DNA of 64,000 nucleotides. Origin: Dysidea avara. Lineage: Eukaryota; Porifera; Demospongiae; Dictyoceratida; Dysideidae. The stretch spans positions 31,512,368-31,576,367 of the forward strand of contig NC_089276.1 in NCBI RefSeq assembly GCF_963678975.1, written 5' to 3'. The notes under the pieces were generated by a model. The model worked only from the letters and a program-made list of their open reading frames with translations, did no database searches and had not been told where the DNA came from. The position numbers were made by a program, and so were the translations under genes. This document shows positions 1,791-46,287 of the stretch, one piece after another (positions within the stretch are counted from its first letter, which is position 1; the number at the start of each line of letters is the position of its first letter).

Positions 1791-2440
1791 TACCAAAAGG
1801 CTGTACTAACAATTTTTCATTACAGAATCACTCAACACAACTAAAATACAGTATACCAAATGAGAGTAGTAACTATTGCATTTGTGAATGCAACTATTAA
1901 TCACATAGTGATCTAGTTTGTCATACATTTATAGGAATCACGTCTTCATCCAGGAAATGACTCAAGGAGAAGCAAACACAGTATAACTGGTTAATTTCGA
2001 AGGGGAAATTTTCAAAGAGCAGCTGCTAAAATAAATTTCAAAAGTATAATGTTTGAATACTCTTATCATCATGCTTAGCACCACCAAAATTATTTTTGTA
2101 AGTGCACGGTTAATCTATGTGAAGACAGTGACCATGCGTAGCGGTACAATCGAAATTAAGACATTTACTAGGTGTTATTGTATTGGGACTGCTCCAGCTC
2201 CATTATAGGAAAAGGTGGTTTTGTCAATGGGATACAGATAATCTTTGCTGTGGGCGTGGCCATTGTAGCACCAGGACAGAATTCAGCTGACCTGGCACAA
2301 GGCAGCTTTATATTTGAAGAGTTAAATTTTCATAGATGTGTTCTTCGAATAATTCGAAAATTAAATCCCTTTGAAAACAGCCCATTATACAGTGCAGTTT
2401 TATAAGGGAAGGGGGGTGCTTTTGAGGCACTTTCAATTAA
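1791..2440. other. Intergenic, nothing recognised
   Basis: AT-rich sequence without a supported gene, terminal repeat or tandem array. A 77-codon ORF at 2172-2405 has no recognisable motif and no partner elsewhere in the window. Confidence 0.4.
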
Positions 2441-3174
2441 GGTGGTAGTTACCTCAAAATTTCTGGTTTGAAGGATATTTTTAAAATTTAGTTGTGAACA
2501 TGTTTGGAGAGCTATGCTAAAATCAGCATTGTAGGCCAGTATCTACATACTGATTTGTATGACCATTAGATGTTGAACAATGCCATAAAGCCAATTGTAG
2601 GAGCACGCAAAAATACTTTCGGCATCACTTTATGCAAAGTTTGCAGCACATTATGGCAAAGTAAAACGTGGAATCCATTCTTTAGCAGCAAAAGCAGGGC
2701 GCAGTCAACACAATTTAAACCTATGCCAGGCTGAAACACAGCTATGGGATTTTGAAGCGCTTTTGACCACCACGAATGGACTAAAACGTGCTGTAATGAC
2801 GACAGGCAGTACAAAAATTTTTTTTCTTGACATGCAGCCCTGCTACAAATACCAATTGCTTATTTTACATTACTACAGAGGTCTCGCTAATTAGTATAGA
2901 AGAAAAAAAGTGATGCAGAAAGTTGTACTAACAATTTACCATACCATACTAATACTACAAATGATCTATACCACCAAAGTTTCTTGCGAACCTAAATCCC
3001 CGTGAACAAAGGTTCTAAACACTCTACTTACTTTAGTGAACATCTTTTTTAATAATACTCACACAACATAAACAAAATTTTCCTTGTTACGAGGCAATGG
3101 GCCTTAGTACGCGCAACTGCCATTTTAATTATTACGTAAACACTAATCACATGATGCAATAAATGAATTTTTCT
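2441..3174. mobile_element. TTAA-flanked element, 3'-truncated copy
   Basis: Starts directly after TTAA (2437-2440) with GGTGGTAGTTACCTC and aligns along its whole length with the intact nested copy at 10781-11597. Similarity stops after ATGAATTTTT at about 3174, so the right terminal repeat is missing. The reading frame that is open in the intact copy is still recognisable here (about 2612-2790, residues such as SLAAKAG and LCQAETQLWDFE). Confidence 0.65.
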
Positions 3175-10162: not shown

Positions 10163-11896
10163 CAGAGTTGGGGGTAACTAGTTACTTTTGTAACTAAGTT
10201 ACAGAAGTAGTTACTTTTTAAGTAACTAATAATATAACTAGCTACATGCTTTGTAACAATAGTATGTTCACGTTGAGCTGAATCCTGAAAAACAGCTAAA
10301 AATTAAAAGTGGATTTTTTCTCAACTGAGTTAACATTTCAGCTAAACAGATGATTATTGGTAACAGCAAAGGTGTCAACAACAGACACGTATGGTTTGGC
10401 TCCATTACAAGTTCGGGAAAGGGCTGTAATGGACACTGTACTTATATGGCTTCACATAGGAAATGTATTGTGAAAATTTTGATTGGCCATAAATATTATG
10501 TCAAACATTTGAACAAAAAGATTTTGAAATAATTTTAGCGGATCAAGCAGTACTACAAATGAGCCAAATTTCAAGATCGTGTGTAATTGCATCCATGAGT
10601 TATTAAATGTTTTTGAGGATTCAGCTCAACGTGAACGTACTAAAGTAACTTGTAACTGGGAGTAATTGTCTGAAAAGTAACTAAGTTACAATAGTAACTA
10701 GTTACTATAGTTACATTGTAAATATAGGTAATTATGCTTTAAAAGCAAGAACCCTTCAATTTGCGCTACAGCCACATTAAGGTGGCGGTTACCTGACAAT
10801 TTCCAGTTTGAAGGATATTTTAAAATTCAGCTGTGAATACATTTGTAGAGCTACGCGAAAGCAAACATCGTTACATCGTAAACCAGCTCTTCTTCTACCT
10901 ACATAATGATTTGTACGGCCATTAGATGCTGAACTATAACACTATAGAGCCGATTGTAAGAGCATACAAAAATATTTTCGGTGTCAGTTTACGCAAAGCT
11001 TGTTGCACATTATGGCGAAGTAAAACGCGTAATCTATTCTTTAGCAGCAAAAGCAGGGCACAATCAACACAACTTCAGCCTATGCCAGGCTGAAACACAG
11101 CTATGGGATTTTGAAACCCTTTTGGCCACCGCGAAGGGACCTAAAATCTGCTGTAACATCGACAGGCAGTACAAAAATCTTTTTTTCTCAACATGCGGTC
11201 CTGCTACAATAACCAATCGCTTATTTTACGCTAATACAGAGGTCTCCCTCACTAGTATACAAGAAAAAACTGATGCAAAAAAGTTGTACTAACACTTTAG
11301 CATACCATACAAAACCACAAATGACGTATGCTGCCTAAGTTTCACGCGAACCACCCGAATACCCGTGAACAAAGCTTCTAAACTACTCTACTTACTTTAG
11401 CAAATGTCTTTAACAATACTCGCACAATAGTAACAAATTTCTTCTTGTTACAAGGCAATGGGTCTTCGTACGCGCAGCTGCCATTTTAATCATTACGTAA
11501 ACACTAATCACATGACGCAATAAATGAATTTTTGTGGCAGGACATATGGCTTCGTTTGCAATGGCTTCAAAACCACGACTTCCAGGTAGCCGCCACCTTA
11601 AGTGAACTAGATTCTGTGTACTGTTCTCTATGATTCAGCTTTAGTAACAGATGTAGCAATAATTAAAACTGACCTGAAATAGCCACAGAATTGTTATTTT
11701 ACGTGCACATATGTATTGCATCCCTTAATGATGCATATCTGAGCAAAATCCATGTTACAAAAGCTAAAAACAAGTCATTATTTAAACTATGAAAGTAACT
11801 AGTAACTAAAGTACTTAGTTACCTTTTACGAAGTAACTAAGTTACATGGCATGAAAAGTAAAGAGTAACTAGTCTGAAGTAACTACCCCAACTCTG
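10163..11896. mobile_element. hAT-type element copy C, carrying a nested insertion
   Basis: Ends CAGAGTTGGGGGTAAC and GTTACCCCAACTCTG-like sequence, with GTAACTAGTTAC words near both termini. The flanks CTTACACG and CTTACGCA are an imperfect 8-bp duplication. It sits inside the TTAA element 9766-12036 and itself contains the TTAA element 10781-11597. No transposase ORF is present. Confidence 0.7.
10781..11597. mobile_element. TTAA-flanked MITE with 15-bp ends GGTGGCGGYTACCTG
   Basis: Inverted ends GGTGGCGGTTACCTG and CAGGTAGCCGCCACC are each bordered by TTAA (10777-10780 and 11598-11601). The interior has a 103-codon + strand ORF (10981-11292). Its residues SLAAKAG and LCQAETQLWDFE recur in the same frame in the truncated copy at 2441-3174. 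No known domain is recognised. The ORF may be a relic of a parent element or a captured fragment, or simply an open frame. Confidence 0.7.
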
Positions 11897-33360: not shown

Positions 33361-33363
33361 TTA

Positions 33364-34486
33364 GGCCACACCAAGTCAAACCTTAGTTTCTGGTCACCCG
33401 CCCGCATGGTAAACCTGAAACCCTAGTTTATGAGGACTATTATTAATATTACAGGTGCTTAAGTGCACGTGACCCAGCAAGACACTTATTTTTTTACTGC
33501 AAAAGATCGATATACTCTAATAGAGCATTCAGGGTTTCCAATAGAGCAGTCACACTACTCTTAACTCTAATATTAGGTATATATGCCACACTAATAAAAT
33601 GTTTCTAACTATAGCTAGTTTTGTCCTTGATTATATAGCTGTTCAGATTATAACTGTTACTAATGCTTCTGTAACCAAAGTAATTTCAGTAGCATTAACT
33701 ACTAGTCCATGCAGATGGGCCATAGCTTTAACTTTATAATTCAAATGTAGTCCTCTAATGACTAGTCTAGTAACTTCAAATTCCTTATCACTGAACACTA
33801 CAGGGGTATGGAAAGCCGGCAACATTTGGTGAGCTTAAACTTAAACTTTTCCATAACTAAAATTAGATGGGCAAGTAGAAACCCTTATAGTTTAAACATT
33901 CTCAGATGATCACTAAAAAACAGTAGTCTGGAGCACTCAATGACTCAAAACTTTGACAGTTACTTTTCTCAAGGTTACTGAATAGAAGGCTGGAAACATA
34001 TAGCTAGTGGGCTAAGACTTTACATTTGAATGAAGAATTTCTGATGTGAAAATAGAAGTTAAATTTCATTGTATATCATGATCATTTGAACAACTTAGCT
34101 ATAAGTCATAGTAATACTTTCCTGACATAGCTAATGAGACATTTATTTCACTTGGAAAGCATAAGTAGCTACATGAGCAAAACATTTCCTATAGTATATT
34201 CTAAATAAATAAATAAATATATACTTAAATGCTATACATCAGTGTATAGCTAGCTAGCCATGATCCATCAACAACTTTCCTAGTGCATTTTTTGCCGAAG
34301 CACAACTACTTATGTTGTTGGTTAAGTATAAAATCAACATGAATTTGCTAAATTGAGCAAATAATAATACCATACAGTATATTGTCACAGTAGAGTCTAT
34401 AGTCCTGAAGTCCTGATCATCCGCCCGCCCGCATCCATTTGTAGGCTTGGGAGTGACCAGAAACTAAGGTATGACTTGGAGTGGCC
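33364..34486 (+). mobile_element. PIF/Harbinger-type MITE, 1,123 bp, copy 1
   Basis: Inverted ends GGCCACACCAAGTCA and the complement of TGACTTGGAGTGGCC, flanked by TTA on both sides (33361-33363 and 34487-34489). Nearly identical, in opposite orientation, to 44768-45890, which has exactly the same length. A 60-codon ORF is identical in both but is antisense here and has no motif, so it is not called. Two CTCTAATAGAGCA-type motifs lie at 33513-33553 and a CCCGCCCGCCCG tract lies near the right end. Confidence 0.88.
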
Positions 34487-34489
34487 TTA

Positions 34490-35484: not shown

Positions 35485-35493
35485 CAAATATTT

Positions 35494-35789
35494 GGCCTTC
35501 GTTAAAACCCGGAACGGACTGGACCGGACCGGGCGGATTTTTTTTTTGGACGAGGTTGCAATACTTTGAAAAAAACTTCGAAATAATTTTCTACGCGTTT
35601 TTAGAACTATACTACATTATGCGGTGCTATATACTGTTACAGGGTAAGTGTCCAACATTGCACGTTTATGCTATTGTAATAGTGAATTTTACACTTTATT
35701 AACGTACGTGTAAGTAGTAATATTTAATATTGATAGCATGTATACACGAATAATACGAGTGGGCATTAATTGAACTAGCTAGCTATTCT
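35494..35789. repeat. MULE left terminal inverted repeat
   Basis: About 296 bp. The inner part (from GGGCGGATTTTTTTTT at about 35529) is the inverted copy of 44125-44406, sharing GGACGAGGTTGCAATAC, TACGCGTTTTTAGA, GTGTCCAACATTGCACG and ACTAGCTAGCTATTC. The outermost 25 bp pair with 46254-46278 instead. Confidence 0.85.
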
Positions 35790-37744
35790 ACAGGGTATGT
35801 ATGTGCGATATTGTTTGTAAGCTTACATGGAGCCACACCCACTAATCAGGTATGAGTTTTAGGCTAGTCTTGCAGCTGTTAACTTCTTTCGTGAGCCTCA
35901 CCCACTTGCATACAGTGTATGTGGGTTCACACTAATTTAAAGGTGTGTTTAAGTTTGGACTGCAGTGCCACAAGGTATGAAGATAATAATTTATTAGCAA
36001 TATTAAAATTTGTGATAATTCACCAAATTTAGTTTACTGCCAAATTTAATTGTTATACAGTATACTATCACATGTGATCCCAGACCCAGATATTCAATAG
36101 AGCAGGTAAGACCCACTTGACCCAGACAAAATGCGACCCAAGTAACCCAGATAATCCGGATGACCTCCCTGCTGGTAACGAAGTGGCTGCTCTGGTTTTT
36201 ATGAAAGCTAAGGTTGAATGAAGTAGTGTAGCACTATTTTGCTTGTAAAATTTCAGTTCCATGCCAAAACTTTGCTGTAGGAAAGTCTCAAGCCATTTCT
36301 TTTTGAGTTCAATACTTGTACTGGCTTATTCCTCATAGTTAATATCTGCCAAGTGTATAAATCCCAAAACAGTGGATTAATGATATTGTGCATTGTAGTG
36401 TGTAGTTATCGAGGGTATCTGTTTGACATGAAACTGTGTATTTTCTGTATAATTCATCGACAGGTTACTGTTGTGCATGCACGAGACCAGAGTAAGTTAA
36501 AATTACAAAAAAAGGAAGCTGTGGTGTAGTTGTTGTTGACTGATATATGTGATTTGTTGCTTAGTAACCTAATATTTTTATTTTTTATACCTCCAGTGTC
36601 ATTCTGTCGTGTGTCAACGATGATGTCACCTACTCCAAGAGACCAGCATAACTATCGGTTGATAAGAAGATCTTTATATATATATTCATCAAGTGGCTAT
36701 GGTAGATGATCACTAATCATCCGCCTCCTACCCCAGTGTGTCTGTATTGCCTTTGTCCCAAACTGTGATATGGAGACAGGGTAGGGTCAAGCTAGCTATC
36801 CTTGCAGTGTAGCCTTGCAAATTAGCAACAAGTGTACTGTATACGTAGGTGGGGAAATTTTCTAAATTATTTTATAGTCGTATCATCCTTTAGTTCAGGG
36901 GGAGGGGGAGAGCCATTGTTCCATAGTCAGGCTTTCTAATAGTTGATGGTATTTCATTGTTTTCATCATATGTTTCTTATGAGGGAGCGATTGTCTTAAT
37001 GGTCCACCCACCAATAGTTAGTAATGTCAACATAAGAACATTGTAAGACATGTTAGCCACACCCCACTGCAGTTGAGAGTTTTTTGGCAAGGTGGTACAC
37101 AAAAAAAATTAGAGCTTAATCTTCTGTAAAGCAGAAAGCACTTTTCAAAATTTTTCTTGTGGTTACCATAATAGCTAGTTGTGCAGTTCAATGTGAAGCA
37201 CCCATATACATTTGATACTGCGAACCACACTCTATGTTCTTGTACCAGTACATGTGCTAGCCATTTGTTTGATAGGGTATTAATATTCATGGTTCTATTT
37301 TATTGGCAGCAATCACCTCTATTGGGACTGTCCAAACTCTTAAAAGTACTTTTATTGAATCAGCTGACCCATTTGAGTAAAAATGCTAATTAGCTGTGTA
37401 CAAAGTTTTCAACATTGAGTCCAGCAATTTGTTAAAAATCACTTCACACTAGTACTCAATTTACAAAGTTTTCAGTGATATTTAATTTGAATTACTTCCT
37501 AATATAATCATTTGATGACTATTTTCTATATAGGGGGACATGTCCCCAGATCCCCTAGCTACAGCATGCTGAGTCACAATAAGAACCCCTCAACTAGCCA
37601 GATTGCTACATTTATTCTTGCTACCTCTTTGCCCCCCATAGGCTCTCTACCTCTTATGTTTTAAGACACAATTATACCAGTTTGAAAATGTGAGATAACA
37701 TCCAATTACAACAGATTTCTTACAGACATAATATTATTGTACAA
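35790..37744. other. Non-coding 3' part of the MULE
   Basis: Between the left terminal repeat and the transposase stop codon. No ORF with a motif. Around 36075-36165 short ACCCAGAT/GACCCA words recur. Presumably 3' untranslated sequence and spacer of the minus-strand gene. Confidence 0.45.
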
Positions 37745-40700
37745 TTACCACTTGCCAGCATTCTGCTGGCCAACACGTATGGCATTAGATAAGTTGTGTT
37801 GTCGTTTGCCCTTGGGTTCTTTTCGTATTGTCATCATGTACCTGCCACACTGTTTTCGTGGTACCAGTCTTCTCTGATTCTTTGATGGCCGTCCCTTAGG
37901 AGCAGGTTGTTTCCCTCTTGTCCCATACTTTCGACGTCCAGCAGCACTTGCTTGGATTGGTATACGAATACCATGCCGTATACTTTCAGAATTTAAACAA
38001 GCAGATTTTCCAGTACTGATCTTTCCAAAGTTATGAAAAGAGGAAGCAAGGACAGCATCGGATTTGGTTCTATTATACTGATCAATGAACTTTTGGATAC
38101 CAGTATTAAATTGGGGATCATTCTCTTTCAACTTCTCAGAAATGTCGAAAAACACTTCTTTAAGAGCATTTTTCATTGACTCGTTCACATCACCATTTTC
38201 TTTTTCATGATAATCTACTGGACCATCTTGCTCATCAACAATTACATCCTCTTTAGCACTCTCTCTTATTACTGCCCAGCATGTCTCTTGTTCTGCCTTC
38301 CCTTTTACCTCTTCGCCTTCTAGATTATGAGACATATCAGTATAGAATTCTATGTTCTGTTCAGCTTGACCACCAATAGCAATGTATGCTAGTTGTTTTC
38401 TTGAAGGTGCATGCATGGTTGGAATAAAATTTAAAGATTTGTGATGGTAGTGAAGCACAACTGCTGCTTGATGACTACATGGTGAGCCATCTTTTCCACG
38501 CTTGCAGCTACAAATACCAAATGCCATATCTACATGGTAAGTATCATCAGGATTTCTACTGCTTTTGACAATAAAAATATCTTCACTAGATTGTGATATG
38601 TATCCCTTAGGTATTTTCGATGCATTTAAACCCCGATATTTGACAGAAATGAAACAATCCAGACGATTGTCGGCTACACTTAGTAGTCTGCGCTGGTGGT
38701 AAAGTTCAAAAGCTTCAGTAACAAATTCAAACATCTGTACCAAATTATAGGCCTTTACTCTTTTGAAAACCAATTCTTTCAATATACCTATTGAGGCTTC
38801 GGAATAGTTATTTGTGTGATTTCCCCTAACACAAAGATCTTCTCGATAAGATAATGCCCACTCTTTGCAGTCAGAGTACAATGATTCCATATGCTTCAAA
38901 AAATGGGGGTACTTTAAAGCTGTCTCATTTTTCTTAATATCCTTAACATTCTGTTCAAACTCTTGTTTTGTAGAAGCAAAAACAACTTTCTTTATCAAAC
39001 CAATTAAAATACTTCGATCATTGTGTTGTATTTTGTTTTTACCTTCCCACAACCAAGTCCATCTTCTTTGGAGAAAATGAAAAACACATAAAAGCTGTGT
39101 TGATTTGGGCCACATTTTACCAAGGGCTCCTTTTTCTGTTGCACTATCATCAGTCATTACCACTTTTGGGCCATTACTCACACCATTACCATAAAATGCT
39201 TGCGTAGGCAGGACATCTTTAAGCATACACAAACCTGAATAAATCGTTGACAACTTTTCATCGGATGTCATAAGTACTGCTAATGGTATCCCCCCTGCTG
39301 GATGACTGGTTGACAAGATAAATAATGCTGTATTAAATCTATCTAGAGAAGAGGTGGCATCACAATACACTATTTCAGCTGCTTGTGGAAGACTAGCATG
39401 TGCTCTAGCCATCAATGGAGTACAGAGGGCTAAAACAAAAGGTTGACTTCATTCTCGCTTCCGACGTTTAGGTTTGGGTTTAGGTGTGTCAGAGTCACAG
39501 TCATTTTCTTTATCACTATCATCAGTTGTATTGCCACCAGCTGCATCGTCATCATCTAAACTGCTTGATTTAAAGGGCTGTAGTTTTGCACAGCCACCAT
39601 GATCTTTCCACTTTTCGTTGTATAATTGAATTTCATGTTCTAACTGCTTAAAGAGGCTCTCTCCATTATCATCACCTAATTCATTTTGTCTCCAAGTGTT
39701 GAAAAGACGATACACATCTTGTTTAGTGGGATTAAGTGCTCGATCAGCAATTTTTCTCTGAGTATCTCCAGACTGATTGGTCAGTAAAAGTGTTTCATAG
39801 TAAAAGCGTGCTGATGATGCTGAATGTCCCATTTTAAACAAAGATATGTACTTTTCTTTTGTCTTATCTAGTACTGGCCTAAAGCCTAAGGCTTGTGCTG
39901 ACTCTGTGGAATGATTGTGATCAAAAGTCAACTTCACTAGAGTGTGATACTCCTGGAGATTGCTAGCTTGTGGACGCTTCATCAGTAATGATTTTGGAGG
40001 AATTTGAACTGTAATTAAAAGTTTGGATGCACACTTAGTTTTTTTATTCCGTATATCGGAAACTAAACTTACAGATTTTCTTTTTGAAGAACTGGATTGA
40101 GCTAACTGCTTGCTAGTAAGCTTTTTCTTAAAGTGTTGACAGTGCATGTCAACTTTATATTTAACTCGTTTCATTTGTAGTTTGTATGTTCTGGTAACAC
40201 GGTAAGTACACTTACTATGGCACTGAAAGTCTTTAAGCCATTGTGATACACTCCCTTCTTTTTGTAGATTCATTCGAAACTGAATATGAAACTTTGGTGT
40301 ATGGCATGTGCTATTGGGTAATTTAGTGTATTCTTCTATCAAATAAGAATATTCTTTTGGAAGAATACACTGCAGTTCAAAAGGTAATTCATTCCACTCC
40401 TTTGGGACATAACTGATTTGGAAGCTATCATCTGAATCATCTTCGTCACTTGATAAGCTGTCATTTACCAATTTTCTACTGACTTCTGAATAGTCAGATA
40501 GTTCTTTAGATTGGGATGTAGGCATTACAAGAGCATCTGAAAGATGACTGACAGTCAAAGTATCTTGATCACTTGACACTAGCTGAGATGTTGAGCTTTT
40601 TATAGGTGAATGTAACTGTATATAAGTGTCTACATCAACTAAATTCTGCTTAAGATTTTGTTTGCACTTGTGTGCATCATCTAAATGCACCAACCACCAT

Positions 40701-43700
40701 AATATAGGTTGAAAATGTTAAAATACATGGACGTACCAAGTTGTATCAATGATAATGTCAATTCCTGTTTAATACGGTGACGTATCGCTCCCATTGAGTC
40801 CTAAATTGAACAAAGTAAATCAACAGTGATGCAATAATTGATTTACACCTGTGTAAAAGACATCGGTAGACTTAAAAGCAGGCATCTTGCATACTACGTA
40901 AATGAAAAGCAAGTGCCACACATAAATACACAGCATTGCATACAAACTCCATACCTCAAGTAGAAATATACCGCAGTCAACAGAATTAGTTTGCTTAGGA
41001 ATTCCCTGAATATCATTATCATATGTGATACCCAATTAAATACCAGTACACTTACATCAGCAGTTTTGTAAATCCAATCATCTTTGGAAATATAATGCCT
41101 TTTGAAGAAAAACTCCCTATCATAGAAAGAATAAAATTAATGTGGACACTCACTGGAAGGGGCTATGCACTCAAGAATGTTGAAGCCGTTTAAGAATTTA
41201 ACTGGCAGTGAAATCACAAATATTATGTAAAAATTCATATGGATACACAAGTCCCGATAATAGCTATGTGGGAGAACAATAATACAGCAGCACTCTTATT
41301 GCAATAAAAGACAATTACCAATTCTCTCTACTACAATGTATCACCTTTATCATGATGTTAGGCAGTTCAGGATACATTCTAAGCTAGTTCACCTGGCTTG
41401 TAATCAGTTTACAAGGTCAGCAAAACAAATTTCACCATTTTAATGGCACATGCTCATTGCGATGAAACGTTTGTTACGATTATATTTAAACAACTTCACA
41501 ATGTAAACAATCTGAGCACATAATGCTTTTAAATCATACTGTACCTGAGAAGGCTAAAATAACAAGTATCTTGTCCACTACTATAGGAACCTATTGAATC
41601 ATAGTATATCATTCTTTTTAAACCAGGCGCACGCCCACAGCCGGCCGAAGGCCGGATGTGGGCGTGCGCCTGGTTTACTGTAATTGTTTCCGTAAAAGTG
41701 TGTGTGTGTACCTATCTATCTACCTATGTACCTATCTACCTATGTTTGTCCGTACGCACCCACGTGAGCAAAATCGTTTAATAACGGTGAAAGCAGCTTT
41801 TACGTAAGAAGTAAAAGTGAAATGAAGTCTGTATTAAACTTCTGCACAGGTGAACTTTGCTCTGAGGTGGTTTCTTTTCGGCGGACTGAAATACGGGTGT
41901 GGTGACTTTCCTCAGACTACCTTCCCCTTGAGGTTTTCAGGCATTTAGCAACTGAAAAACAACGGTGCAGGCCTCGTACACTGCCAGGAATAGCCTATCG
42001 CTTCGAGTTGAAAGGAGGCGTATCCCTTACTTACGCGAACGAAATGAAGAGCAGCTTTGAGGCTTTGTCGAGAGAATTTGTGGGAAAAAACACGTTAGTC
42101 ACACTATAAAACAGTTTAGAAGATAGTTTTGTGCGTAATATGTTGGTAAAAGCGGTTTATTTAACAAACGCTTCCTTAGCAGTGCATAGCAACGTAATTG
42201 AATGAATTACGAATGTTTCATGAATTACGAGAAATAGCTAATTATATTATTGCACAACCCAAACTACCATATTGTAAAGTAGTAATACATAGTTGGTTAA
42301 TTCATAGTAGTATATACTGTCTATAGTTATTCCAGATGAGTTAGCTAGCTGCATGGCGCCTGGTTTTTAGAAGTAGCACAACATCAACTTGTTTCACTTG
42401 GCCTAATTACCTGTGTAATTACAATGGAAACACTTAATAGAACAAATAAAGCCATACCATCATAGTCCAATGGTTTCCTTCATTAAATATAGCCAAAACA
42501 AATTCTGCATCACAAAAATTAACCTTTAGATTAATTGAAATGTGACATGCGTAATAGTAATTGACAAGCTATGTACCTTAGAATACCATGACTCTACACC
42601 AGAATATCCCGTCGCAAGCATCTTGGTTGTAAAAAAGTTACTTAGTACACAAACTGTCATTTTAACCTACAGAAAAATTAACAATAATTGTCACAGATGC
42701 ATGTGCTGTATAATGTAGCAACCACAGTTTGGTAAACGAATCACATATCAACATAGATTGGCAGTACATGAAACTTGGGCATCTTGTTATGTTACTAAAC
42801 ATGGTGGAAGCAAGCAAAGCAAAGAGAAAAACTACAAATTGATTGAGTAGATATATAACATTTGTCACAAACCCATTCCTTGGACACTGTAGATAATAAA
42901 AAACAATTCAGAAATCACAGGCGTAGCTAAGCAAACCATGCATGTATGTTTTGTTGTGTTCTTTCAATACTTTTGGATACAAAGACTACAAAACTGGTAT
43001 GATTGCTTGAATATCCTAACTAGTTTCTTAGTAACGTCACAATTTTAAACTAAATTCAATAGAGTTGCTAAGGCTGTGCTTTATTTAATAGAATCATTAC
43101 TGACACTAAATGTCCTGCGAAATGGTTATATAGTATAATATTTACTGCTGCTATGTATGCCCTTAACTTGGTACTGATTTTTGTGACCCTACATGGTTAT
43201 TGAATCTTATCATAACCTTATAATAATGTGAGAGTATCCAGCACTGTATTAAAACAAAACGCACTGGGTTGTTATAATATGCAATCTTCATCATCACCAA
43301 AAGGTGATAATTTGCTTCAAGGGCTACAAACACACAATAGCTTTATAATAATAATGTGTTTAAAGTAAGTAATCATGCACAGTACTCAGACACTTTATTT
43401 CTCAGTGCGCATACTATACATGTGGCCAATGGAAGATGCAGCAATTTCTCTCGATTATGAGGATGAAGAACACAGCAGAGACAGAAGTTTGATGTAGTAA
43501 GGAATCAGTATAACGAATGACCATGTGGGAAGAGAATCTGCATGTGGGCGTGAAATGGGATTTTCTTGGAGTGGCCTAATCAGTGACAGCTCTTCAAAGC
43601 TGTAGCAAGCGAAACACGCCTCATATCTAACCAGTGACATCAAATGTACAGGTAGTATATTGGGCGCGTGATGCCGTTTCCAATTTCTATTAAGAATTTA

Positions 43701-44111
43701 AGAGTCGTATATCCATGTTTTCACACAGTACAGAATCAGTATACGATAGTGTAACTGTGCTTTATAGATTGGTACAAACAATTATTTTTCAATGCATGCT
43801 TATAGTTAGCTACACACAAAATATTCCTCAGACAATACAGGAAAGAGATCAGTTTACCTAGAGTGCCTGTTAATTAAGTTATCGAACTTACTGCTTCTAG
43901 CACACAAGATCTGAGGAGTTCGAGGTATCTAGTTATAACCTAGGTGTAAAATAAAATAACAATACACTATTGGTATACTATATTGTACCTTATCTGAAAT
44001 GCAGTCATGTTCATTTAATCTTTGCCAGTCTTGAGGCGAAAGATAGTCAAACCTTACATCGGAAGATGCCTGATCAGTATCAGAATCAGATAGTAATATT
44101 ACTCGCTTCAT
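37745..44111 (-). CDS. Spliced Ulp1 (C48) protease-MULE transposase fusion
   Basis: Predicted exons with matching phases: 43989-44111 (ATG; LSPQDWQRLNEHDCISDK), 43892-43939 (VITRYLELLRSCVLEA), 42577-42666 (SNFFTTKML, GYSGVESW), 42458-42523 (EGNHWTMM, catalytic His), 41545 to about 41616 (MIYYDSIGSY, catalytic Asp), 41056-41116, 40955-41005 (NSVDCGIFLLE, catalytic Cys), 40849-40893 (YARCLLLSLPMSFTQ), 40737-40800 (MGAIRHRIKQEL), then 40680 onward. The last junction joins in phase to a long exon. That exon has an N-terminal Cys/His-rich region (CHSKCTYRV and VDMHCQH), acidic linkers, the MULE DDE core (QPFVLALCTPLM, VYCDATSS, VVMTDDSATEKG), a SWIM finger (CSCKRG and CSHQA) and a basic tail. An in-frame TGA at 39449-39451 interrupts it just before QPFVLAL. 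The acceptor of the Asp exon is unclear because a MITE abuts it. Ulp1 domains cleave SUMO-type conjugates; their role in transposition is unknown. Confidence 0.8.
41620..42366. mobile_element. MITE in a transposase-gene intron, with GC-rich hairpin end
   Basis: Outer ends AAACCAGGCGC and GCGCCTGGTTT; TTTA borders both sides if the ends are taken as AACCAGGCGC. The left end is a 57-bp hairpin (41620-41676) with 27-bp arms, one mismatch and a GAA loop, far more GC-rich than its surroundings. CTATCTAC-type tetranucleotide repeats lie at 41709-41745. The element lies immediately 5' (in gene sense) of the exon with the catalytic Asp and may have displaced its splice acceptor. Confidence 0.7.
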
Positions 44112-44124
44112 CTATAGAATAAAA

Positions 44125-44406
44125 ATTTCGTCACGACTAAGAATAGCTAGCTAGTTCAATTAATGCCCACTCGTATTATTCGTGTATACATGCTATCAAT
44201 ACTAAATATTACCACTTACACGTACGTTAAAGTGTAAAACTCACTATTACAGTACAATAGCATAAACGTGCAATGTTGGACACTTACCCTGTAACAACAT
44301 ATAATACCGCATAATTCAGTATAGCTCTAAAAACGCGTAGAAAACTATTTCGAAGTTTTTTTCAAAGTATTGCAACCTCGTCCAAAAAAAAAATCCGCCC
44401 GGAGCG
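44125..44406. repeat. MULE right terminal repeat, inner part
   Basis: Inverted partner of about 35525-35789. It lies just upstream of the fusion gene's ATG (44111) and so probably contains its promoter, as terminal repeats of Mutator elements do. No TATA box was singled out. Confidence 0.8.
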
Positions 44407-46250
44407 GACCAGAATTTTATTGTTGAGGAGCGCGTATCCAACTAAAATAATTTCGGTGCGCTTGCAAGGGATACAGGACGTGGACTCTGTTCTTAATTTG
44501 CACTCAGGGCACGATTGTCTACTGATATCCAGAGTGGCTGATGGTGATTTCGAAGCAAATATAGTCGTATACTGGTATATACACAAGTTTGCGAAGCGGA
44601 AACGTAGCGTATTACAAGGACTGGATACTCTCACCGTAGCAAACAATGGTGGCGAGATACAAGCTAGCTACTGTAAGACTGATCACAAATAATATACCTG
44701 GACTGATCTACATACCGTACGCAAGGAAATTTATACGCGAGAGAATTTGACGAATCGGGTTTGATTAGGCCACTCCAAGTCATACCTTAGTTTCTGGTCA
44801 CTCCCAAGCCTACAAATGGATGCGGGCGGGCGGATGATCAGGACTTCAGGACTATAGACTCTACTGTGACAATATACTGTATGGTATTATTATTTGCTCA
44901 ATTTAGCAAATTCATGTTGATTTTATACTTAACCAACAACATAAGTAGTTGTGCTTCGGCAAAAAATGCACTAGGAAAGTTGTTGATGGATCATGGCTAG
45001 CTAGCTATACACTGATGTATAGCATTTAAGTATATATTTATTTATTTATTTAGAATATACTATAGGAAATGTTTTGCTCATGTAGCTACTTATGCTTTCC
45101 AAGTGAAATAAATGTCTCATTAGCTATGTCAGGAAAGTATTACTATGACTTATAGCTAAGTTGTTCAAATGATCATGATATACAATGAAATTTAACTTCT
45201 ATTTTCACATCAGAAATTCTTCATTCAAATGTAAAGTCTTAGCCCACTAGCTATATGTTTCCAGCCTTCTATTCAGTAACCTTGAGAAAAGTAACTGTCA
45301 AAGTTTTGAGTCATTGAGTGCTCCAGACTACTGTTTTTTAGTGATCATCTGAGAATGTTTAAACTATAAGGATTTCTACTTGCCCATCTAATTTTAGTTA
45401 TGGAAAAGTTTAAGTTTAAGCTCACCAAATGTTGCCGGCTTTCCATACCCCTGTAGTGTTCAGTGATAAGGAATTTGAAGTTACTAGACTAGTCATTAGA
45501 GGACTACATTTGAATTATAAAGTTAAAGCTATGGCCCATCTGCATGGACTAGTAGTTAATGCTACTGAAATTACTTTGGTTACAGAAGCATTAGTAACAG
45601 TTATAATCTGAACAGCTATATAATCAAGGACAAAACTAGCTATAGTTAGAAACATTTTATTAGTGTGGCATATATACCTAATATTAGAGTTAAGAGTAGT
45701 GTGACTGCTCTATTGGAAACCCTGAATGCTCTATTAGAGTATATCGATCTTTTGCAGTAAAAAAATAAGTGTCTTGCTGGGTCACGTGCACTTAAGCACC
45801 TGTAATATTAATAATAGTCCTCATAAACTAGGGTTTCAGGTTTACCATGCGGGCGGGTGACCAGAAACTAAGGTTTGACTTGGTGTGGCCTTAGTCAAAA
45901 TTTTCTTAAGTCTAAATTTCCTTGCGTACGGTATGTATACAGATCATTCCAGTTAGTTATATTATCTATGACCAGTCTTGGCTAGCTTGTATGTCGCCAC
46001 CATTGTTAGCTACGGTGAGAGTATCCAGTCCTTGTAATACGCTACGTTTCCGCTTCGCAAACTTGTATAAATACCAGTATACGACTATATTTGCTTCGAA
46101 ATCACCAGCCACTCTGGATATCAGTAGACAATCGTGCCCTGAGTGCAAATGAAGAACAGAGTCCACGTCCTGTATCCCTTGCAAGCGCACCGAAATTTAT
46201 TTTAGTTGGATACGCGCTCCTCAACAATAAAATTCAGGTCCGGTCCGGTC
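44407..46250. repeat. Palindrome inside the MULE right end
   Basis: Arms of about 340 bp (44407-44750 and 45905-46250) are inverted copies. They begin AATTTTATTGTTGAGG next to GGACC/GGTCC words and converge on a centre now occupied by a PIF/Harbinger MITE. Each arm has an open frame of 74-90 codons reading outward to inward (shared words QGIQDVDSVL and DCLLISRVA). The arms differ by an in-frame one-codon indel (VADGDF versus VAGDF) plus a few substitutions. No domain recognised; possibly a nested foldback element or a captured host exon. Confidence 0.75.
44768..45890 (-). mobile_element. PIF/Harbinger-type MITE, 1,123 bp, copy 2
   Basis: Same length and nearly the same sequence as 33364-34486, inverted relative to it. 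Flanked by TTA on both sides (44765-44767 and 45891-45893). It sits at the centre of the palindrome in the MULE right end. It must postdate that palindrome and, given the identity, it is young. Confidence 0.88.
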
Positions 46251-46287
46251 CGGTCCGTTCCGGGTTTTAACGAAGGCCCAAATATTT

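Follow-up and report, generated by a model that had tools for sequence, protein, structure and literature searches.

Ulp1 protease domains are listed in PMC2836005 as encoded by Mutator elements of hydra, lancelet, Arabidopsis, maize, rice and melon, where a part in transposition or repair is suggested for them, and a figure legend in the same paper refers to transposases of Ginger1 and Mutator that carry Ulp1 and PHD domains. For grapevine, families of Mutator-like elements (MULEs) with ULP1 regions in either orientation are described in PMC2528002, and the table of MULE groups in PMC6446971 gives target site duplications of 8-11 bp, mostly 9, in a paper whose main text does not mention Ulp1, C48, protease, sponge or Amphimedon. 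Here, we analyzed a stretch of 64,000 nucleotides from the sponge Dysidea avara (contig NC_089276.1, positions 31,512,368 to 31,576,367; hereafter the window), in which a first-pass annotation had proposed a Ulp1 protease joined by splicing to a MULE transposase. We consider it probable that the window holds a degraded MULE copy from a family that fuses a SENP-type Ulp1 domain in front of the transposase, and that relatives of this copy yield a single SUMO-removing chain.

To identify the domains, we read and translated the minus strand of 46500-36500 and joined the peptides of the Ulp1 exons into one query, with X at unsure places. The joined exons matched Peptidase_C48 (PF02902) with an E-value of 8.1e-18 and 65.5 bits (cut-off 20.7), a match that by its score is far beyond chance, and two parts of the joined peptide matched C48 on their own (1.2e-10 and 6.9e-5). 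The best solved relative was SENP1 (E 2.4e-19), followed by SENP5, SENP2 and SENP3, and the positions of the His, Asp, Gln and Cys residues agree with SENP1. These matches bear out the annotated Ulp1 domain in minus-strand exons (44111-39449), and the other two proposed domains also scored above their Pfam cut-offs in 39448-37745, each barely: MULE (PF10551) with an E-value of 3.4e-6 and 27.8 bits (cut-off 27.6), and SWIM with an E-value of 4.8e-4 and 20.1 bits (cut-off 19.6). In four relatives, the MULE domain reached 29 to 40 bits, and SWIM fell below its cut-off in three of the four, with its CxC...CxH residues nonetheless unchanged. When these relatives were aligned to the window (five lineages), D30, D100/101 and E217, the candidate catalytic residues, proved invariant together with C121-x2-H124 and the SWIM Cys and His residues; a C-x2-H between the second Asp and the Glu is a mark of MULEs. 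Between the two halves, 40717-39452 had no Pfam match over cut-off and shows by eye a conserved Cys/His pattern, which we take to be possibly a WRKY/GCM1-like finger. No Gypsy-integrase-like DDE was found in the window, where the sole integrase-type match was rve_3 at 11.8 bits (cut-off 26.5). No KDZ family appeared among Pfam matches up to E 1 for the window and the four relatives, assuming that Pfam includes a KDZ model, and a tRNA scan gave no match.

The ends of the element were found from inverted matches between 35519-35789 and 44412-44140 (92%) and between 35485-35532 and 46288-46240 (96%), which outline terminal inverted repeats (TIRs) of ~300 bp. The 9-mer CAAATATTT occurs only twice on the plus strand of the window, directly outside the TIR ends (35485 and 46279). 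Based on the repeats and this flanking duplication, we delimit the element to 35494-46278, and both the length of the duplication and the long TIRs agree with those of MULEs.

We then searched the window's own genome in six frames with the DDE protein and obtained 68 matches, with two loci at 96% identity, a C13 fragment at 88% and the rest at 28-61%; several relatives carry a single open frame of ~1000 amino acids. Eleven upstream stretches from nine lineages were fetched along with one 0.7-kb end piece, and tblastn placed Ulp1 exons on the coding strand ahead of the transposase in all 11. The best coding-strand scores were 28.9 to 161 bits, compared to 16.5 to 20.8 bits on the opposite strand, with the exception of L039, where 67.4 bits on the opposite strand are due to an inverted exon. 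As a control, eight 6-kb pieces of the window outside the element reached at most 23.5 bits on either strand. All four catalytic residues (His, Asp, Gln and Cys) were located by motif in three of the nine lineages (the window, L012 and L020), and partial sets were located in L018 and L022 (H, Q, C), L024 (D, Q, C), and L026 and L035 (Q, C); in L036, no catalytic Ulp1 residue was located by motif. Other elements with Ulp1 exons ahead of a related transposase are present in the window's own genome (11/11 upstream stretches); the first-pass annotation had proposed a search of related genomes, and none was confirmed when we sought relatives in collections of viral contigs and genome contigs.

The relatives also tell how the two halves are joined. 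At 10 of the 19 loci inspected, from five lineages, the last Ulp1 helix sits at or near the start of the long exon (for example, VEMPRIRQRIANELA, SDMNGIRMRIASEVE and ENMHSIRNDMVKEL) and continues in frame into the DDE domain; the frame runs through the DDE in L012, L013, L014, L016, L018, L020 and L021, and into it in L024, L026 and L029. The window copy and two close copies are among the other nine loci. A stop lies behind the last helix in L015, an in-phase intron links the helix to the long exon in L022, as in the window, and the helix is absent from the longest frame in L017, L032, L033 and L036. For the L012 lineage, we built a gene model from exon 1 to the stop, with nine exons, eight in-phase GT-AG introns and no internal stop (~1199 amino acids); the first part of its translation gives a C48 match with an E-value of 1.1e-26. 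Exons of 66, 61, 51 and 45 nt occur in both the window and L012 with equal length and phase, at a DDE identity of only 49%, and we let this shared structure stand in for RNA evidence. Across seven lineages (DDE identity 42-62%), the identities of the Ulp1 end (45 residues) and of the DDE covary (Mantel rho 0.39, a value reached in 236 of 5040 relabellings), and both measures pick out the same three nearest lineage pairs, which gives modest support to one old fusion. Together, these findings make it well supported by comparison of copies that a single gene holds both protease and transposase, and since related genomic copies retain the fused layout, we regard the fusion as real in the family.

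In the window copy itself, one frame is held across five GT-AG introns from 41613 to 39449, and one more intron lies within 42666-42458. The first-pass annotation counted nine junctions without listing them. Of the junctions that we examined, six are sound (exons 4-5, 6-7, 7-8, 8-9, 9-10 and 10-11), and three (2-3, 3-4 and the junction of exon 5 with the first piece of exon 6) fit in phase by lengths and splice letters, with exons that are very short or broken, but exons 1 and 2 are out of phase with the sites found; in the 96% copy, the acceptor and the letters of exon 2 are identical. The last junction (40737 to 40680), which that annotation had carried in phase into the DDE exon, spans a GT-AG intron of 56 nt and does keep the frame, but an in-frame TGA (39451-39449) precedes the DDE core. 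This stop parts the protease half from the DDE half, beyond which the DDE and SWIM regions continue in the same frame, and a sense codon stands at its place in the 96% identical copy on another contig.

Two further lesions accompany the TGA, namely, the 768-bp insert in the exon of the catalytic Asp, with a near-perfect 59-bp palindrome (41619-41677; 91.5%) at one end, and the splitting of the 5' TIR by a nested element. The 96% copy is itself broken, with part of its Ulp1 region inverted and stops present. We considered whether an intron might span the TGA: 153 in-frame GT-AG pairs could remove it, and at least two among 40 of these keep QPFVLALCTPLM. We rejected such an intron as unlikely since the removed sequence is conserved in the relatives, where it lies within one open exon. 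Because of the stop, the exon-splitting insert and the split 5' TIR, a bifunctional protein from this copy is unsupported, and very likely no fused protein arises from it. The domain reading of the first-pass annotation was largely right, but it contained none of the three lesions, and its single bifunctional protein is probable for the relatives, with their shared frame and the open spliced frame of L012, but not for the copy from which it was proposed.

Since a candidate SUMO-interacting motif (SIM) was noticed near the N terminus, we devised a strict pattern in which a hydrophobic core precedes eight positions with three or more acidic residues. Among the 12 stretches, the pattern gave eight forward matches and one on all reverse strands together. 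Six of the eight lie in the N-terminal exon of three lineages: MKRVILLSDSDTD in the window (two overlapping) and in its copy, AVIDLTDMD in both L012 and a copy of L012, and MSIDEVIDLDSDLE in L046. The seventh overlaps the MSIDEVIDLDSDLE match and the eighth lies elsewhere in L046. No match was found in L041, L043 and L047-L050, where exon 1 was not located apart from an exon-1-like stretch in L049, and L042 stops short of the region. From the SIM consensus, we infer that these SIM-like stretches are SUMO-interacting motifs.

Several observations weigh against a conserved fused gene with a SUMO-directed N terminus. The upstream stretches were hand-picked mainly for long open frames and are therefore a non-random sample, and the Ulp1 matches of L041, L049 and L050 are weak (28.9 to 30.8 bits). 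The splicing rests on comparison, with the L012 exon ends chosen to fit; the first exon of that lineage has no ATG ahead of the SIM, with no start codon found there, and the sister copy L013 lost the model splice donor (after KTMS), which is why the L012 copy was chosen for the model. Exons 1 and 2 of the window copy misfit by one base. The SIM pattern is post hoc and was shown in three of nine lineages, with exon 1 not located in five, and the exon-1-like stretch LNKEDLQRVTEHGLLNDK of L035 has no SIM match.

Table 1. Features of the window element, its gene and its inserts.
Feature	Position	Strand	Remarks
Target site duplication CAAATATTT, left	35485..35493		9 bp
3' TIR	35494..35789		begins GGCCTTCGTTAAAACCC
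Exon 11, frame past TGA	37745..39448	-	MULE DDE (39361-39068), SWIM finger (38536-38447), basic tail, end QNAGKW
Exon 11, up to in-frame TGA (39451-39449)	39449..40680	-	linker and Cys/His region
Exon 10	40737..40800	-	last Ulp1 helix (DSMGAIRHRIKQELTLSLIQL)
Exon 9	40849..40893	-	YARCLLLSLPMSFTQ; 45 nt, as in L012
Exon 8	40955..41005	-	catalytic Gln and Cys (GIPKQTNSVDCGIFLLE); 51 nt, as in L012
Exon 7	41056..41116	-	EFFFKRHYISKDDWIYKTAD; 61 nt, length equal in L012 lineage
Exon 6, second piece	41545..41619	-	catalytic Asp (MIYYDSIG)
Insert splitting exon 6	41620..42387		768 bp; absent in 96% copy L039, exon whole there
Exon 6, first piece	42388..42410	-	ahead of 768-bp insert; by comparison with 96% copy
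Exon 5	42458..42523	-	catalytic His (GNHWTMM); 66 nt, as in L012
Exon 4	42577..42666	-	VKMTVCVLSNFFTTKMLATGYSGVESWYSK
Candidate exon 3	42860..42886	-	CPRNGFVTN
Candidate exon 2	43298..43323	-	LEANYHLL; 26 nt; phase with exon 1 off by one base
Exon 1	43989..44111	-	MKRVILLSDSDTD... with SIM-like stretch; Ulp1 domain begins (...CISDK)
5' TIR, inner piece	44140..44412
Nested insert splitting 5' TIR	44413..46239 (approximate)		own inverted repeats ~400 bp at 88%, 1.1-kb repeat inside
5' TIR, outer piece	46240..46278
Target site duplication CAAATATTT, right	46279..46287		9 bp

Signs of other movement were seen in and around these elements. Two copies of a 1125-bp repeat, whose ends are short and inverted (TTAGGCCACACCAAGTCAAACC), lie in inverted orientation (33363-34487 and 44767-45891), the second within the insert in the 5' TIR, and the repeat appears to have moved recently, since the copies are 99.9% identical. 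The ends of the nested insert carry a (GGACC)n stretch like MULE TIRs, and similar sequence borders copy L014 at its 3' end, as if elements insert into each other's ends. Copies of the L012 lineage (L012-L016) occur on five contigs and match L012 at 98.8-99.7% identity across the sequence in common, an identity that suggests recent movement of this lineage; its target site duplications were sought and not resolved, with the copies continuing beyond the (GGACC)n stretch. Elsewhere in the window, a direct repeat of ~760 bp (2436-3172 and 10776-11533) has 82% identity.

To determine whether Ulp1 and MULE domains are associated more widely, we compared C48 rows genome-wide with MULE places, the latter comprising 150 profile rows and 42 places from the DDE-protein search. 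Of 149 C48 rows, 15 have a MULE place no more than 10 kb away, compared to a mean of 1.0 and a maximum of 6 in 2000 trials of random placement; 14 of these are on the same strand, with seven in front and seven behind. This count is a lower bound since split exons, like those of the window, escape a profile search. Two other MULE types illustrate the arrangements: L052 carries Ulp1 in front, and L051 (2032-6417) has a 771-residue MULE frame followed on the same strand by a 328-residue Ulp1 frame with a PHD-like end, whose PHD score is under its cut-off. The 771-residue frame contains repeats and, by eye, a SIM-like DFIDLT and an AT-hook-like KKRGRPKG. We also noted 18 strong, near-full-profile C48 rows (E 9e-31 to 2e-29, mostly 165-residue open frames; for example, C1:63779406, C9:29746669 and C13:9341637), none within 10 kb of a listed MULE place, and these are perhaps another mobile family for that reason.

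In our reading, the family's gene runs from the Ulp1 protease through a linker with the Cys/His region, a DDE core that contains the C-x2-H and a SWIM finger to a basic tail, and an open-frame relative would make one polypeptide holding both protease and transposase. Its N-terminal SIM-like motif would bind SUMO-modified proteins, the protease part would be brought to the element's chromatin and remove SUMO nearby, and the DDE part would cut and join DNA, with the possible outcome of weaker SUMO-dependent silencing or of repair factors adjusted at the break. Countering SUMO-dependent silencing is possible, and the SIM-like N terminus fits such a role. In a broader and more tentative scenario, which we would sooner doubt than accept, this is an old MULE group with a built-in SIM and SENP-type module against silencing of the element, and Ulp1 was gained repeatedly by MULE lineages of this one genome, in front (this group and L052) and behind (the L051 type, with PHD). 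The protease may instead cut the fused protein itself or act on another ubiquitin-like modifier such as NEDD8. The C48 family includes enzymes with other substrates, but the best solved relatives are SENP1, SENP5, SENP2 and SENP3, which we take to be SUMO proteases, and SIM-like motifs stand beside the domain in three lineages, so that we hold a substrate other than SUMO to be unlikely. Self-processing, which the first-pass annotation had proposed as an alternative to countering silencing, seems less likely since the closest solved relatives are SUMO proteases.

Two further explanations bear on the fusion itself, and we rate both below a non-SUMO substrate. The element might hold two genes whose order and phase are coincidental, with the splice 40737/40680 an accident; L051, with its MULE and Ulp1 frames ~1.1 kb apart, and the stop between the halves of the window copy are what one would expect, but the same frame and exon for the last Ulp1 helix and the DDE in five lineages are left unexplained, which makes this quite improbable. 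Slightly more improbable still is transduplication, in which the Ulp1 exons are a passively carried fragment of a host gene. MULEs capture host fragments, and the ULP1 regions of grapevine transposons occur in either orientation (PMC2528002). On the other hand, the sponge layout recurs in nine lineages (seven of which, compared pairwise, share 42-62% of DDE residues), the located catalytic residues are kept, and the divergence of the protease agrees with that of the DDE. A family in which protease and transposase form one gene remains our preferred explanation.

Transposons are silenced by genomes in part through SUMO, which, as stated in PMC8131101, promotes silent chromatin in yeast as well as in plants and animals. 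A SUMO-type protease kept in transposases across seven lineages with a DDE identity of only 42-62% makes it testable whether selfish DNA attacks the SUMO layer of silencing directly, and the conserved introns and candidate SIM of lineages to which the window leads give a concrete targeting hypothesis. The first-pass annotation's author knew of no described sponge element with such a layout, a claim of novelty that goes too far since Ulp1-bearing Mutator elements of hydra and lancelet are already named in PMC2836005 and the kind is therefore known. Within the passages searched, that paper was the only one to name animal Mutator elements with Ulp1, and we found no paper joining sponge, Mutator, transposon and Ulp1, nor one describing Zisupton with Ulp1. 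Within this literature, three features may be new: a SENP-like domain that precedes the transposase and carries a SIM, introns that are conserved, and how many lineages a single genome contains.

Compared to described systems, the closest are the MuDR-type Mutator elements of Hydra magnipapillata and Branchiostoma floridae (Bao and Jurka, Repbase Reports 2008, 2009, cited in PMC2836005), which, going by the citing statement, are likewise animal MULEs with Ulp1. Plant MULEs with ULP1 (Arabidopsis, melon, rice and, in PMC2528002, grapevine) share the combination of MULE and Ulp1, but the grapevine region described there lies in either orientation, whereas in the sponge a SENP-like domain precedes the transposase and is joined to it in phase. 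SENP1 is the nearest solved structure by sequence, but it is a cellular enzyme outside any transposase. Finally, Ginger1 is, like the sponge family, an animal DNA transposon whose transposase carries Ulp1 and sometimes PHD, but as presented in PMC2836005 it combines a Gypsy-integrase-like DDE with a C-terminal Ulp1, whereas the sponge element has a MULE DDE, Ulp1 in front and a 9-bp target site duplication.

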